Positions 47,152 through 53,095 of a stretch of DNA of 64,000 bases are shown in pieces. Below the pieces are notes generated by a model. That model was given only the letters and a program-made list of their open reading frames with translations. It made no database searches and was not told where the DNA came from. The DNA is taken from the NCBI RefSeq assembly GCF_000565075.1, contig NZ_JDFG01000039.1:62001-126000 (forward strand), in the 5' to 3' direction. The DNA is from Atopobium sp. BS2. Lineage in GTDB: Bacteria > Actinomycetota > Coriobacteriia > Coriobacteriales > Atopobiaceae. Both the position numbers and the translations under genes were made by a program. Positions within the stretch are counted from its first letter, which is position 1, and each line of letters begins with the position of its first letter.

Positions 47152-47286
47152 TTAGACGGTGAGGCGCTTACGGCCCTTAAGGCGGCGACGAGCGAGAACG
47201 GCACGACCATTCTTAGTTGCCATACGTGCACGGAAACCGTGGGTAGTTGCGCGCTTGCGCTTATTTGGCTGGTAGGTACGCTTCAT
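47152..47286 (-). CDS. rpmH: 50S ribosomal protein L34
   Basis: A 44-residue highly basic protein: [18 protein letters not shown] at the start, followed by [20 protein letters not shown]. The sequence is a textbook L34. GGGAGG precedes ATG 47286. It is the first gene of the operon that reads away from oriC. Confidence 0.98.
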
Positions 47287-47369: not shown

Positions 47370-47648
47370 TACGCAAATACCTCAACTTTTTCTCTTTTTT
47401 ATTCAAAAATCTAGCGAGAAAACCTTTCATTTTGAAAATTTCACTTGTGATAAGTGAAGAAATTTGTTGAAAGGAATATTTCTGCAAGCTGAAATATGTC
47501 CGTTAAATGCTACTATCATTCAGTACGTCTTTCACAAAGATATAAAGTTATCTACAGATGTTTAACACTTGTTGAAAACTTTCATTTATCGTGAAAGAAA
47601 ACGAAAAGTTTTCTTCATTTGTTTAACAATTGTTGAAAAGGAGGTGTC
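47370..47648. other. Candidate origin of replication (oriC), left part
   Basis: This A+T-rich gap between divergent rpmH and the GHKL gene carries a cluster of DnaA-box-like 9-mers: TGTTGAAAG (47465), TTATCTACA (47548), TGTTTAACA (47559), TGTTGAAAA (47570), TGTTTAACA (47620) and TGTTGAAAA (47631). The last four form a 20-bp direct repeat (47559-47578 and 47620-47639) with one mismatch. I found no exact TTATCCACA. Position next to rpmH and upstream of dnaA, plus nearby parS, supports an origin. The region also holds the GHKL gene promoter. Confidence 0.75.
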
Positions 47649-48515
47649 ATGGCAAGAGATTTCTTTCCTTTTGTTGAGGAAAACACAAACCAGAATGAAA
47701 AAGACGCTGGTTCTGATAATTCTCTCACCGTCCGTTATGCTGCACGTATTGCAGTGTATGACGATAAAGCCGCAGCACCTCGTGTTGTTCTCGTAGAACC
47801 AAAAAACGTTCGATCTTATCTTGATGAAATTGCAGCTACCGTTAACCAGCTTGCTCACGAGCAGGGTGGAAAAATTCCTTTTATGGTTATGCGTGAGATT
47901 GTGGAAAATTTCATTCACGCCCGTTTTGTAGCGCCTACAATTTCAATCATGGATAATGGAAATACCATTAGGTTTTCAGACCAGGGACCTGGTATTAAAG
48001 AGAAAAATCGAGCTCTTGAGTTTGGTACTTCTTCTGCAACAGAAGAGATGAAATCGTTTATTAGAGGCGTTGGTTTTGGCCTTCCTTATGCTCAACAATA
48101 CATGGTTGAGAAGGGTGGAAGTCTTACCCTCGAAGACAATATCTCTGGCGGAACCATTGTTACTTTGTCAACACGCCGCTCTAAAGATGCACACATTCAG
48201 ACGCTTCCAACTCAAGAAGAAGCTGAAGAATTACCTGTAAATCAGAACCAACAGGCAGTTTTGCATGCTCAGCAGGCCGTATCTCAACAGCCAGCTGCAC
48301 AGCTTCCTAATCTGATACTTACAGATCGAGCAAAACAAGTTCTTCAATACCTTTCTGAACATGAATGGGTTGGAGCAACAGAGTTAACAAGTACCTATGG
48401 ACTTTCAACACCAACGTGGTCAAGAGAATTAAAATCGCTGTTAAACATAGGAATAATCGGAAAATTTGGGCAGAAATATAAGCTCACTACTATTGGAGAA
48501 ACTCTCCTTTCATAG
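47649..48515 (+). CDS. GHKL ATPase - winged-helix protein located in the origin
   Basis: A 288-residue protein. Residues about 50-175 form a compact histidine-kinase-like ATPase (GHKL) domain: N-box MREIVENFIHA (Asn87), G1 FSDQGPGI (Asp111) and G2 FIRGVGFGLPYAQQY. There is no HisKA dimerisation/phosphoacceptor domain and no membrane helix. After a Gln-rich linker (about 195-222), residues 225-288 look like a winged helix-turn-helix (RAKQVLQYLSEHEWVGATEL, then PTWSRELKSLLNIGIIGKFG). AAGGAGG precedes ATG 47649 and overlaps a DnaA-box-like repeat. It sits between two clusters of such boxes, directly upstream of dnaA. Function is unknown; control of initiation is inferred from place and architecture. 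Confidence 0.88.
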   Translation: MARDFFPFVEENTNQNEKDAGSDNSLTVRYAARIAVYDDKAAAPRVVLVEPKNVRSYLDEIAATVNQLAHEQGGKIPFMVMREIVENFIHARFVAPTISIMDNGNTIRFSDQGPGIKEKNRALEFGTSSATEEMKSFIRGVGFGLPYAQQYMVEKGGSLTLEDNISGGTIVTLSTRRSKDAHIQTLPTQEEAEELPVNQNQQAVLHAQQAVSQQPAAQLPNLILTDRAKQVLQYLSEHEWVGATELTSTYGLSTPTWSRELKSLLNIGIIGKFGQKYKLTTIGETLLS

Positions 48516-48518
48516 AGT

Positions 48519-48582
48519 TTCTCAACATTATTCGATGAAAGTTATCAACATTCCTCTATACTAGGTGTCCCAATTTTCAACA
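48519..48582 (+). promoter_or_regulatory. dnaA promoter with DnaA-box-like elements
   Basis: TTCTCAACA (48519), TTATCAACA (48542) and TTTTCAACA (48574) precede dnaA. A minus-10 TATACT lies at 48557-48562, so the second element falls between minus-35 and minus-10 and the third in the leader. This arrangement would allow DnaA to repress its own gene. Confidence 0.6.
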
Positions 48583-48598
48583 TTTTGATTGGACACGT

Positions 48599-50128
48599 AT
48601 GGATGCATCAATTGATTCAGACGCAGTAGCTCTGTGGCAAGACGCAATTGACCTCTTGGTTGAAGAAAATCAGCCAGAGGCTTTTATCGCTATGTTGAGA
48701 ACCTGCACTCCAATTAAAGTTGAAGATAACGCACTGTGTGCTGAAACACCAATGCGCTTGGCATATAACCGTATCCTTAAAAATCTACCGATTGTTGAGA
48801 GATGCCTTTCAGCAGCAGCCTTTGAAGACATTATTTTGAGCCTTACTCTTACAAAGTCTTCTACCCCTGTTACCACTACTTCCACAATGACTCCTCAAGA
48901 GTTCAATGCTTGGAAGCAAACAACTGCTCCTATACGAGCAGTTGTTCCAGAGCAGATTCAAGATTTTGAATCCCAGGAGCAAAGCCTTGAAGAATTAAAA
49001 CAACAGACCTTAAAACGTCGTAAGAGTAATCCTCTTTATGAAGAGACATCTTTCAATTCAAACCTCACGTTTGATCGCTTTGTTGTTGGTGACGAGAATG
49101 AGCTTGCGCATCAACATGCATTAAATGTTGCAAACGACGCAAAAGGTAAGGCAAACCCGCTGTTTATTTACGGTGCAAGTGGTCTTGGAAAAACTCACCT
49201 TCTACGCGCGGTTCAAAACTACATCAACTCTGAAGATATCGAACGCGTTTGTGTTTACAAAGATGCAGATGCCTTTGTTGATGACTACGTAAATGCAGTT
49301 CGTAAAAACGCGTCAGGAAACGCCGCAACAGAGCTTAGTAATAACTACCAAAACATTGATGTTCTTATCATCGATGACGTCCAAAAACTTGCTGGTAAAG
49401 CAGGTACTATTAATTTCTTCTTCAATATTTTTAACTCTCTTATTGATAGAGGTAAGCAGATTATTCTTGCCGCAGATAGAACACCTGCTCAGCTTGGTAT
49501 GGGATCTGACGGCTTTGATGATCGTATTACTTCTCGTATGAGTGGTGGCATCGTTATTGGTATTGAGTCTCCAAGCTACGAGATGAAGCTCAATCTTATT
49601 CATGTCTTCTGCGACCGTGCGTTTAAAGAAAGAAATTCTTCTCTTTCTGCAGACGATTTGCCAGAGGACATCCGTCGCTACATGGCTGACAAGGCCGGTC
49701 AAAGTATTAGAACACTTGAGGGCTTCTGTAATCGCTGTGTAACTGGTCAGATTAAAGCAAAAGAATCTGGCACAAATATTAAACAGGAAGAAATCGATAA
49801 GATTGCAGACACGCTCTGGCGTCGCGTTTCAAAGACCGTAAATATCGAGAAGGTCCAAGAAGTTGTAGAAAATATCTATGGCATTAGTCATCGCGATATT
49901 GTTGGTAACAAAAGAAATAAAGAGATTGCAGAACCTCGTCACGTTGCAATTTATCTTGCTCACGACCTTTGCCAATACACACTGGTAAATATTGGTAAGC
50001 ATTTTGGTGGAAGAAAACACGCAACTATTTTGCACAGCATTGAGGTAATAGAAGAAAGAATCAAAGAAGACAAAAGTTTCTATGATCAAATTTCTCAACT
50101 CAAGAAGACTATTCTTGAACAAAGTTAG
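48599..50128 (+). CDS. dnaA: Chromosomal replication initiator DnaA
   Basis: A 509-residue AAA+ initiator. Domain I spans about residues 1-85 and a flexible domain II about 86-150. The AAA+ core has Walker A GASGLGKTH (about 192-200), Walker B VLIIDDVQKLAGK and sensor region LAADRTPAQL. Domain IV ends with IGKHFGGRKHATILHS, whereas most DnaA proteins read GGRDHTTV. Relative to E. coli, base-contacting P423, D433 and T435 are V, K and A here, while R399 and H434 are kept. No strong ribosome-binding site precedes ATG 48599. Confidence 0.97.
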   Translation: MDASIDSDAVALWQDAIDLLVEENQPEAFIAMLRTCTPIKVEDNALCAETPMRLAYNRILKNLPIVERCLSAAAFEDIILSLTLTKSSTPVTTTSTMTPQEFNAWKQTTAPIRAVVPEQIQDFESQEQSLEELKQQTLKRRKSNPLYEETSFNSNLTFDRFVVGDENELAHQHALNVANDAKGKANPLFIYGASGLGKTHLLRAVQNYINSEDIERVCVYKDADAFVDDYVNAVRKNASGNAATELSNNYQNIDVLIIDDVQKLAGKAGTINFFFNIFNSLIDRGKQIILAADRTPAQLGMGSDGFDDRITSRMSGGIVIGIESPSYEMKLNLIHVFCDRAFKERNSSLSADDLPEDIRRYMADKAGQSIRTLEGFCNRCVTGQIKAKESGTNIKQEEIDKIADTLWRRVSKTVNIEKVQEVVENIYGISHRDIVGNKRNKEIAEPRHVAIYLAHDLCQYTLVNIGKHFGGRKHATILHSIEVIEERIKEDKSFYDQISQLKKTILEQS

Positions 50129-51477: not shown

Positions 51478-52569
51478 GTGGGACTTAAAGTTGAACATGT
51501 TTCGCTGTATGACTTTCGTTGTTTTTCTTCGAAAGAAATAGATTTATCTGCACAAACTACTATTTTTGTAGGAAAGAACGCTGCAGGTAAGACAAATACT
51601 GTTGAAGCACTACAACTCCTTACTGCTGGATATTCATTTAGAAAGCCCACACCTTCACAACTCCTTCTTACAGGTACTTCTGAGGCAAAGATAGAAATTT
51701 CTCTTACAGGAGATGGAAGAAAGCTAGAAAATGCCTGCACCATTACAGAACGCCGCCGTCAATTTTTAAAGAATGGCAAGAAATGTCAGGCTGCAGATAT
51801 TTCTGGAACACTGATGTCGGTACTTTTTAATCCCGATGACCTTTCAATGATTAAAGGTGGTGCATCGTATCGCCGAGAAGAATTTGATGACTTTGGCCGC
51901 CAGGCAAATAAAAGCTACTTCAAGGTCTTCTCGGCATATACCAAGACAGTTGGGCAAAGAAATAAGCTGCTTAAATCTGATTGGCCAGATGAAAACTTGC
52001 TTGATGCTTGGGATTTTTCACTTGCAAGAGGAGGGGCTACGCTTCTTCATGCACGAATTCATTTGTTTGAGCGCCTGTCAAAGAAGACATGTGAGATCTA
52101 CCAGGAACTCTCTGGTGGAGAACACCTAGAAATGAACTATATTTCTTCAATTGGAGAGGTATCTCTTGAGGCCACTAGAGAAGAAATTACTGATCAATTC
52201 TTGAAGGCTTTAAGTGAAGCTCGCACGGATGATATTCGTCGTCAGCAAAGTACAAAAGGACCTCATCGAGACGACGTTGAGTTTTTAATTGAGGGTAAAG
52301 ACGCTAGAAATTTTGGTTCTCAAGGTCAAATTAGAACTGTCGTTTTAGCACTTAAGATGGCAGAAGTTCTCCTTTCAGAAGAAATACTTGGTGAGAAACC
52401 CTTGCTGCTTTTAGATGATGTTATGAGTGAGCTTGATGAAGACCGCAGAAAAGCCATTATGGAATTTGCATTCCATGACATTCAGACAGTAATTACCACT
52501 ACAAACCTTGGGTATTTCTCTGAAGAGGTTTTAGAAAAAGCGCAGATAGTTAGGTTTAGTGATGAATAA
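51478..52569 (+). CDS. recF: DNA replication and repair protein RecF
   Basis: A 363-residue ABC-type ATPase with Walker A FVGKNAAGKTNTVEA, the RecF signature, and Walker B LLLLDDVMSELDEDRR. It loads RecA at gaps together with RecO and RecR. It starts at GTG 51478 with AGGGG upstream and overlaps the next gene by 8 nt. Confidence 0.96.
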   Translation: MGLKVEHVSLYDFRCFSSKEIDLSAQTTIFVGKNAAGKTNTVEALQLLTAGYSFRKPTPSQLLLTGTSEAKIEISLTGDGRKLENACTITERRRQFLKNGKKCQAADISGTLMSVLFNPDDLSMIKGGASYRREEFDDFGRQANKSYFKVFSAYTKTVGQRNKLLKSDWPDENLLDAWDFSLARGGATLLHARIHLFERLSKKTCEIYQELSGGEHLEMNYISSIGEVSLEATREEITDQFLKALSEARTDDIRRQQSTKGPHRDDVEFLIEGKDARNFGSQGQIRTVVLALKMAEVLLSEEILGEKPLLLLDDVMSELDEDRRKAIMEFAFHDIQTVITTTNLGYFSEEVLEKAQIVRFSDE

Positions 52570-53095
52570 TCAACAAGAAACACCTGCGCGCGGTGGCAAT
52601 GAAAATGCAAAAGATTTAATGAGTTCTCTGCTTGGAACTTTCAGAGATTCTAAAAGCATGTCAAAAAATCGTCGTGCTTATCTTGCGTGGGTTGAAGCAA
52701 ATGGTGAAAGAGAAACAGAACATACAACCGGCGTATTTGTTAGAGAAGTTGCTGGTAGAGAGTTCCCTGTGCTTACAGTCTATGTAGATAATCGTATGTG
52801 TATGATTGATTTTCTTGCACAAAGAGAAATTTATAGAGCCAGGCTCTCAGAGCAAGGCCTGGAGTTCTCAGACCTTGAATTTAAGCTGGACAAATACAAT
52901 AGACATGCTGATAAAGAAGCCAACTCATCAGAAAAGCAAGCACAGGGCCAAAAAGAAGAGAAAAAAGATCTTCCAGAACTCACACCAGAAGAGAAATTAC
53001 AAATTTCTGAGTTAGTTTCTGGACTTTCTGAGCCACTTAAGTCAACGGCTTATAAAGCGATTGAAGCAAGTTTTAGACAAAAAAAGAGTCTTTAG
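52562..53095 (+). CDS. DUF721 (DciA-like) protein
   Basis: A 177-residue protein. The N-terminal 100 residues match the DUF721/DciA pattern (SKNRRAYLAWVEANGERETEHTTGVFVREV, spanning its helix and strand, then LTVYVDNRMCMIDFLAQREIY). The C-terminal half is a Lys/Glu-rich linker followed by a helical end. DciA proteins load or operate the replicative helicase DnaB in bacteria that lack DnaC or DnaI, and the gene usually sits between recF and gyrB in actinobacteria, as here. ATG 52562 overlaps the recF stop. Confidence 0.85.
   Translation: MNNQQETPARGGNENAKDLMSSLLGTFRDSKSMSKNRRAYLAWVEANGERETEHTTGVFVREVAGREFPVLTVYVDNRMCMIDFLAQREIYRARLSEQGLEFSDLEFKLDKYNRHADKEANSSEKQAQGQKEEKKDLPELTPEEKLQISELVSGLSEPLKSTAYKAIEASFRQKKSL

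Follow-up and report, generated by a model that had tools for sequence, protein, structure and literature searches.

What does a small protein with the marks of a GHKL ATPase and a winged helix do when its gene lies directly upstream of dnaA, among DnaA boxes? Controls of bacterial replication initiation have been worked out mostly in Proteobacteria and Bacillota, and our search of open-licence papers found no description of this gene or of any dnaA-linked GHKL gene. Here, we describe the gene, its relatives and its setting in a 64-kb stretch of DNA from Atopobium sp. BS2 (the window, analysed at its full length of 64,000 nucleotides); features lie on the forward strand unless stated otherwise.

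Domains and relatives of the protein

The gene (47649..48515) is present as a single copy in its own genome and encodes 288 residues. Pfam matches HATPase_c at residues 79-175 (E 7e-10) and the winged-helix family HVO_A0261_N at residues 222-287 (E 8e-6, below the family cut-off). Structure prediction with AlphaFold2 from a 64-sequence alignment yielded a model with a mean pLDDT of 85.6, in which two confident domains (residues ~26-180 and ~220-288, pLDDT mostly >90) are joined by a disordered linker (about residues 190-220) and preceded by disorder at residues 1-20. Together with fold matches, these results place the GHKL nucleotide-binding domain at residues 26-180 (47724..48188) and the C-terminal winged helix at residues 218-288 (48300..48512). 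The N box (EIVENFIHA, residues 83-91, 47895..47921), G1 box (DQGPGI, residues 111-116, 47979..47996) and G2 box (GVGFGL, residues 140-145, 48066..48083) were located by alignment of 64 homologues and supply the ATP-site motifs E83..N87..H90, D111xGxG115 and G140xGxG144. By these boxes and its Bergerat fold, the protein is a member of the GHKL ATPase/kinase superfamily.

No HisKA or AlbA_2 domain was detected by Pfam at E up to 1, and the protein has no transmembrane or sensor domain; only ~25 residues, mostly disordered in the model, precede the GHKL domain. The model likewise contains no transducer domain of the MutL/GyrB/Hsp90 type, the GHKL domain being followed by the disordered linker and winged helix only. 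Thus the initial annotation was exact in the coordinates and length of the reading frame (translation, ORF list), and its three nucleotide-binding boxes, its lack of HisKA and membrane domains and its C-terminal winged helix are all borne out by sequence, Pfam and structure prediction. Beyond the HATPase_c superfamily, the protein passes no curated cut-off in Pfam or NCBIfam, and none of the initiation regulators Hda, SirA, YabA, DiaA, HobA, SeqA or DnaD was matched at E <=1 in these libraries, which do not necessarily hold a model for every one of these names.

Ten residues (N87, H90, D111, G113, G115, G140, G142, G144, G157 and G168) are invariant in all 64 aligned homologues, so that the loss of N, G1 or G2 residues in relatives, named at the outset as a result that would count against a nucleotide-dependent role, was not found. 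Pfam matches HATPase_c in every one of the 64 and HTH families in most. Glu83, kept in 62 of 64, is spaced from Asn87 as in the Glu-x3-Asn pair of MutL and SpoIIAB, whose Glu acts as the general base; in histidine kinases this position is Asn. The sequence of the recognition helix is TWSREL in the window's family and STAYRDL, or similar to it, in most lineages. Many lineages, though not all, also carry a short N-terminal motif (such as MARDFYPFVE, MKNFLxxL or MQDFFLRL) ahead of a variable disordered stretch; in the window it occupies 47649-47678 and might serve as a docking peptide.

The top Foldseek match is DIP2311 of Corynebacterium diphtheriae (PDB 3lmm), with an alignment long enough to cover both domains; its GHKL part superimposes with Z 14.5 and rmsd 2.6 over 149 residues, and it too places a winged helix C-terminal to the GHKL domain. 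DIP2311 is larger (about 550 residues against 288), shares only 15-20% identity, and has an AlbA-type N-terminal domain for which the window protein has no room. We take DIP2311 to be a multi-domain GHKL protein of the COG2865 / AlbA_2–HATPase_c_4–HTH type. The earlier generalisation that fusion to a DNA-binding domain is unusual for soluble GHKL domains is therefore too strong: DIP2311 has the same pair, and the fusion is not without precedent. The published description of DIP2311 gives its function as unknown (PMC8780604). Both domains and their fusion are thus of known kinds, and there is a substantial chance that the function of the gene is new.

For the winged helix, the next structural matches are MarR-type repressors. 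A homologue also matches the Csa3/CasR winged helix (TIGR01884, down to E 3e-9, below cut-off); Csa3/CasR proteins likewise carry a nucleotide-binding domain followed by a winged helix, but theirs is a CARF sensor rather than a GHKL domain, and they are tied to CRISPR, not to dnaA. For the GHKL part, further matches are SpoIIAB and the CA domains of histidine kinases, each with Z about 11. The CA domains share the HATPase_c fold, whereas the window protein lacks HisKA and a sensor and has Glu, not Asn, at the first N-box position. SpoIIAB/RsbW proteins are closer in being small, soluble GHKL proteins with Glu at the general-base position, and this likeness raises the alternative of a protein kinase, or an anti-factor, working directly on DnaA or on some other initiation protein, with the winged helix placing it at the origin and the N-terminal motif of many lineages offering a possible dock for a partner. 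We consider this improbable: the window protein differs from SpoIIAB/RsbW in its added winged helix, no STAS antagonist or sigma gene lies nearby in the window or among the flanking genes of relatives, and HATPase_c_2 is matched in only 6 of 64 homologues, weakly (best E 0.004, Pfam).

Linkage to dnaA and distribution

The same domain pair was sought next to dnaA in relatives, and 113 loci with the gene were read, from ~29 families of the window's phylum and from the ANGP1 group that includes locus L002 (a MAG), which we take to be Sysuimicrobiota. At all 104 loci whose contig reaches dnaA (103, plus L073, where the gene ends at the beginning of dnaA), the gene is the immediate upstream neighbour of dnaA and shares its strand. 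At the other nine, the contig ends <=217 nt past the stop codon of the gene; several of these are long single contigs that stop there, as expected for closed chromosomes numbered from dnaA. Separation of the gene from dnaA was seen at none of the 113 loci, and the scattering of homologues away from dnaA that was to speak against the annotation is not observed among the 104 testable ones.

Distances from the stop codon to the start of dnaA (the DnaA match extrapolated to its start) lie between about -10 and 333 nt. Spacing is near zero (about -10 to +15 nt, some genes overlapping) in many families other than the window's, which suggests a shared operon in those families. The window's neighbours rpmH, rnpA, yidC, dnaA and dnaN also flank the gene in relatives. 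Since the order rnpA–yidC–jag–dnaN–recF–gyrB is itself conserved around the gene, it could be a regulator of unrelated genes that remains beside dnaA only because gene order close to the origin decays slowly. Three loci bear on this directly: in L001, L052 and L053, perhaps through a single common inversion, dnaN and rnpA have changed orientation, and the gene and dnaA are inverted together relative to dnaN/recF and rnpA/yidC. The pair stays intact where the order breaks, so the gene is linked to dnaA and not to rpmH. With zero exceptions among 104 loci and near-overlap with dnaA in many families as well, we regard the slow-decay explanation as very improbable. Adjacency to dnaA is nonetheless not proof of action on dnaA. 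Distances between homologues of the protein correlate with DnaA distances at r 0.47, inside the range of other gene pairs (0.43-0.70), which fits vertical descent and gives no specific signal of co-evolution.

The search for homologues covered two phyla, the window's and that of L002. Matches were obtained in 271 of 298 genomes of the window's class (a few at E about 1e-4 only), in 247 of 396 genomes of its phylum, including a weak tail at E around 1e-4 that is taken to be generic histidine kinases, and in 42 of 43 genomes of the phylum of L002, most at E below 1e-80. Fifteen class genomes without a strong match were examined for dnaA; ten of these also lack a dnaA match and in one the contig starts inside dnaA, so that assembly gaps are likely for 11 of the 15. 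An assembly gap is not the cause in the other four (G161, G228, G008 and G061), where dnaA sits between intact flanks and a homologue is missing. Elsewhere in the phylum, eight genomes sampled from other families also carry dnaA and lack the gene. Because dnaA is kept where the gene is absent, the gene is dispensable over evolution.

Loci of class members without the gene (L128, L129, L130 and L131) have dnaA and intact flanks, with a dnaA–rnpA gap of 0.8-1.6 kb, and offer natural comparisons for the function of the gene. One homologue (G284:C16:34215-35063) carries an in-frame TAA and is possibly a decaying copy. A mobile or phage origin was rejected, since neither plasmids nor phages nor IMG/VR gave a match, as was a role in defence, PADLOC models matching the winged-helix part only and with weak scores.

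The origin setting

The cumulative GC skew of the window reaches its minimum at 44-52 kb, as expected for an origin, and five of the seven TTWTCMACA sites of the whole 64 kb fall within 47.3-48.6 kb. The gene is flanked by DnaA-box clusters on both sides, with the divergent rpmH (47152..47286, reverse strand; translation) beyond the upstream one. Upstream of the gene, an extended -10-like element, TGCTACTAT (47508..47516), is followed by two copies of a 35-nt direct repeat, 86% identical and 61 bp apart, each containing a DnaA-box-like half together with an inverted box. The first copy (47544..47578) holds the box-like halves TTATCTACA (47548) and TGTTGAAAA (47570), and the second (47605..47639) ends in the inverted DnaA-like box TGTTGAAAA (47631-47639). 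The ribosome-binding site AAGGAGG (47638..47644) shares 2 nt with this last box, in agreement with the overlap first noticed there. Upstream alignment shows that the box pattern and the extended -10-like element are kept in the window's family; the L002 group retains, ahead of the gene, an array of the pattern TTATCCACA-N3-TTTTCCACA-N2-TGTGGATAA.

Downstream, 83 nt separate the stop codon from dnaA (48599..50128; TIGR00362 above cut-off), and the further boxes reported before dnaA are present there as TTATCAACA (48542..48550) and TTTTCAACA (48574..48582). The first of these lies inside a dnaA promoter-like site, ATGAAA-16-TATACT (48535..48562), which is a consensus match only, with TATACT kept in the family's flanks; in the window, dnaA appears to have its own promoter. 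No known RNA element reached Rfam gathering scores between 44.0 and 53.5 kb.

Promoter-like elements upstream of both the gene and dnaA, the operon-like distance to dnaA found in many lineages and a winged helix of the IclR/MarR/TrmB type would all suit a purely local transcription regulator, one that acts on the rpmH–dnaA promoters to control its own and dnaA transcription only, senses adenine nucleotides through its GHKL domain and takes no direct part in opening the origin. Against this reading, k-mer analysis and alignment footprinting of the upstream region revealed only DnaA boxes and promoter-like elements, with no clearly distinct winged-helix operator, a result that also weighs against the main model set out below. 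A plain autoregulator also needs no link to dnaA through rearrangement, though it could keep one. We judge this purely local reading to be rather unlikely, while rating it above the kinase and slow-decay alternatives.

Proposed role and observations on DnaA

A regulatory role at the origin had been proposed for the protein in the initial annotation. The part of this proposal that ties its function to dnaA or its origin is well supported by comparison of sequences, because no scattered homologues were found and the N, G1 and G2 residues are invariant; how the protein would regulate is kept here as a conditional model. Strict linkage to dnaA, an intact ATP site, a retained winged helix and a setting among DnaA boxes are most simply read as signs of a part in initiation or in dnaA expression, and we consider it on balance probable that the gene encodes a nucleotide-gated, origin-proximal, vertically inherited one-component regulator of dnaA expression and/or initiation. 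The GHKL domain, with Glu83 placed as the general base is in MutL and SpoIIAB, would bind ATP, and its conformation or dimer state would shift with nucleotide or a partner. This state might then gate the winged helix on rpmH–dnaA DNA, so that dnaA transcription and/or the assembly of DnaA on the adjacent boxes could track nucleotide or cell-cycle state. As some lineages without the gene keep dnaA, such a protein would be an accessory regulator and not a core initiation factor.

The chance seems nearly even that these proteins form an unrecognised class of initiation regulator, in which a GHKL ATP switch and a winged helix bind the origin in a nucleotide-dependent manner and set dnaA expression or the timing of initiation. 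The class would be old, since it is common to many lineages of the window's phylum and to the Sysuimicrobiota/ANGP1 group. With its two domains, invariant ATP site and constant dnaA neighbour in many lineages of this phylum and another, the protein is a strong, testable candidate regulator of initiation or of dnaA in this phylum, including human-associated Coriobacteriia, and the gene offers a simple way to study the coupling of initiation to nucleotide or energy state beyond the model organisms.

Two further observations concern neighbouring genes. A 178-aa ORF between recF and gyrB (52559-53095), where a DciA-type helicase loader is expected by position, matches nothing in Pfam or NCBIfam within the limits applied. 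The DnaA of the window carries GGRKHAT as its C-terminal motif. In a comparison that took in the window and loci L017 and L139-L156, the D of the DNA-recognition motif GGR-D-H-x-T (E. coli D433) is replaced by S, T or K in the window's family and is kept nearly everywhere else. The origin boxes of this family read TTWTCAACA and not TTWTCCACA: 35 D-type loci have 82 CC and 20 CA boxes, whereas 16 S/T/K-type loci (two from one genome) have 2 CC and 41 CA boxes, as if initiator and box had changed together.
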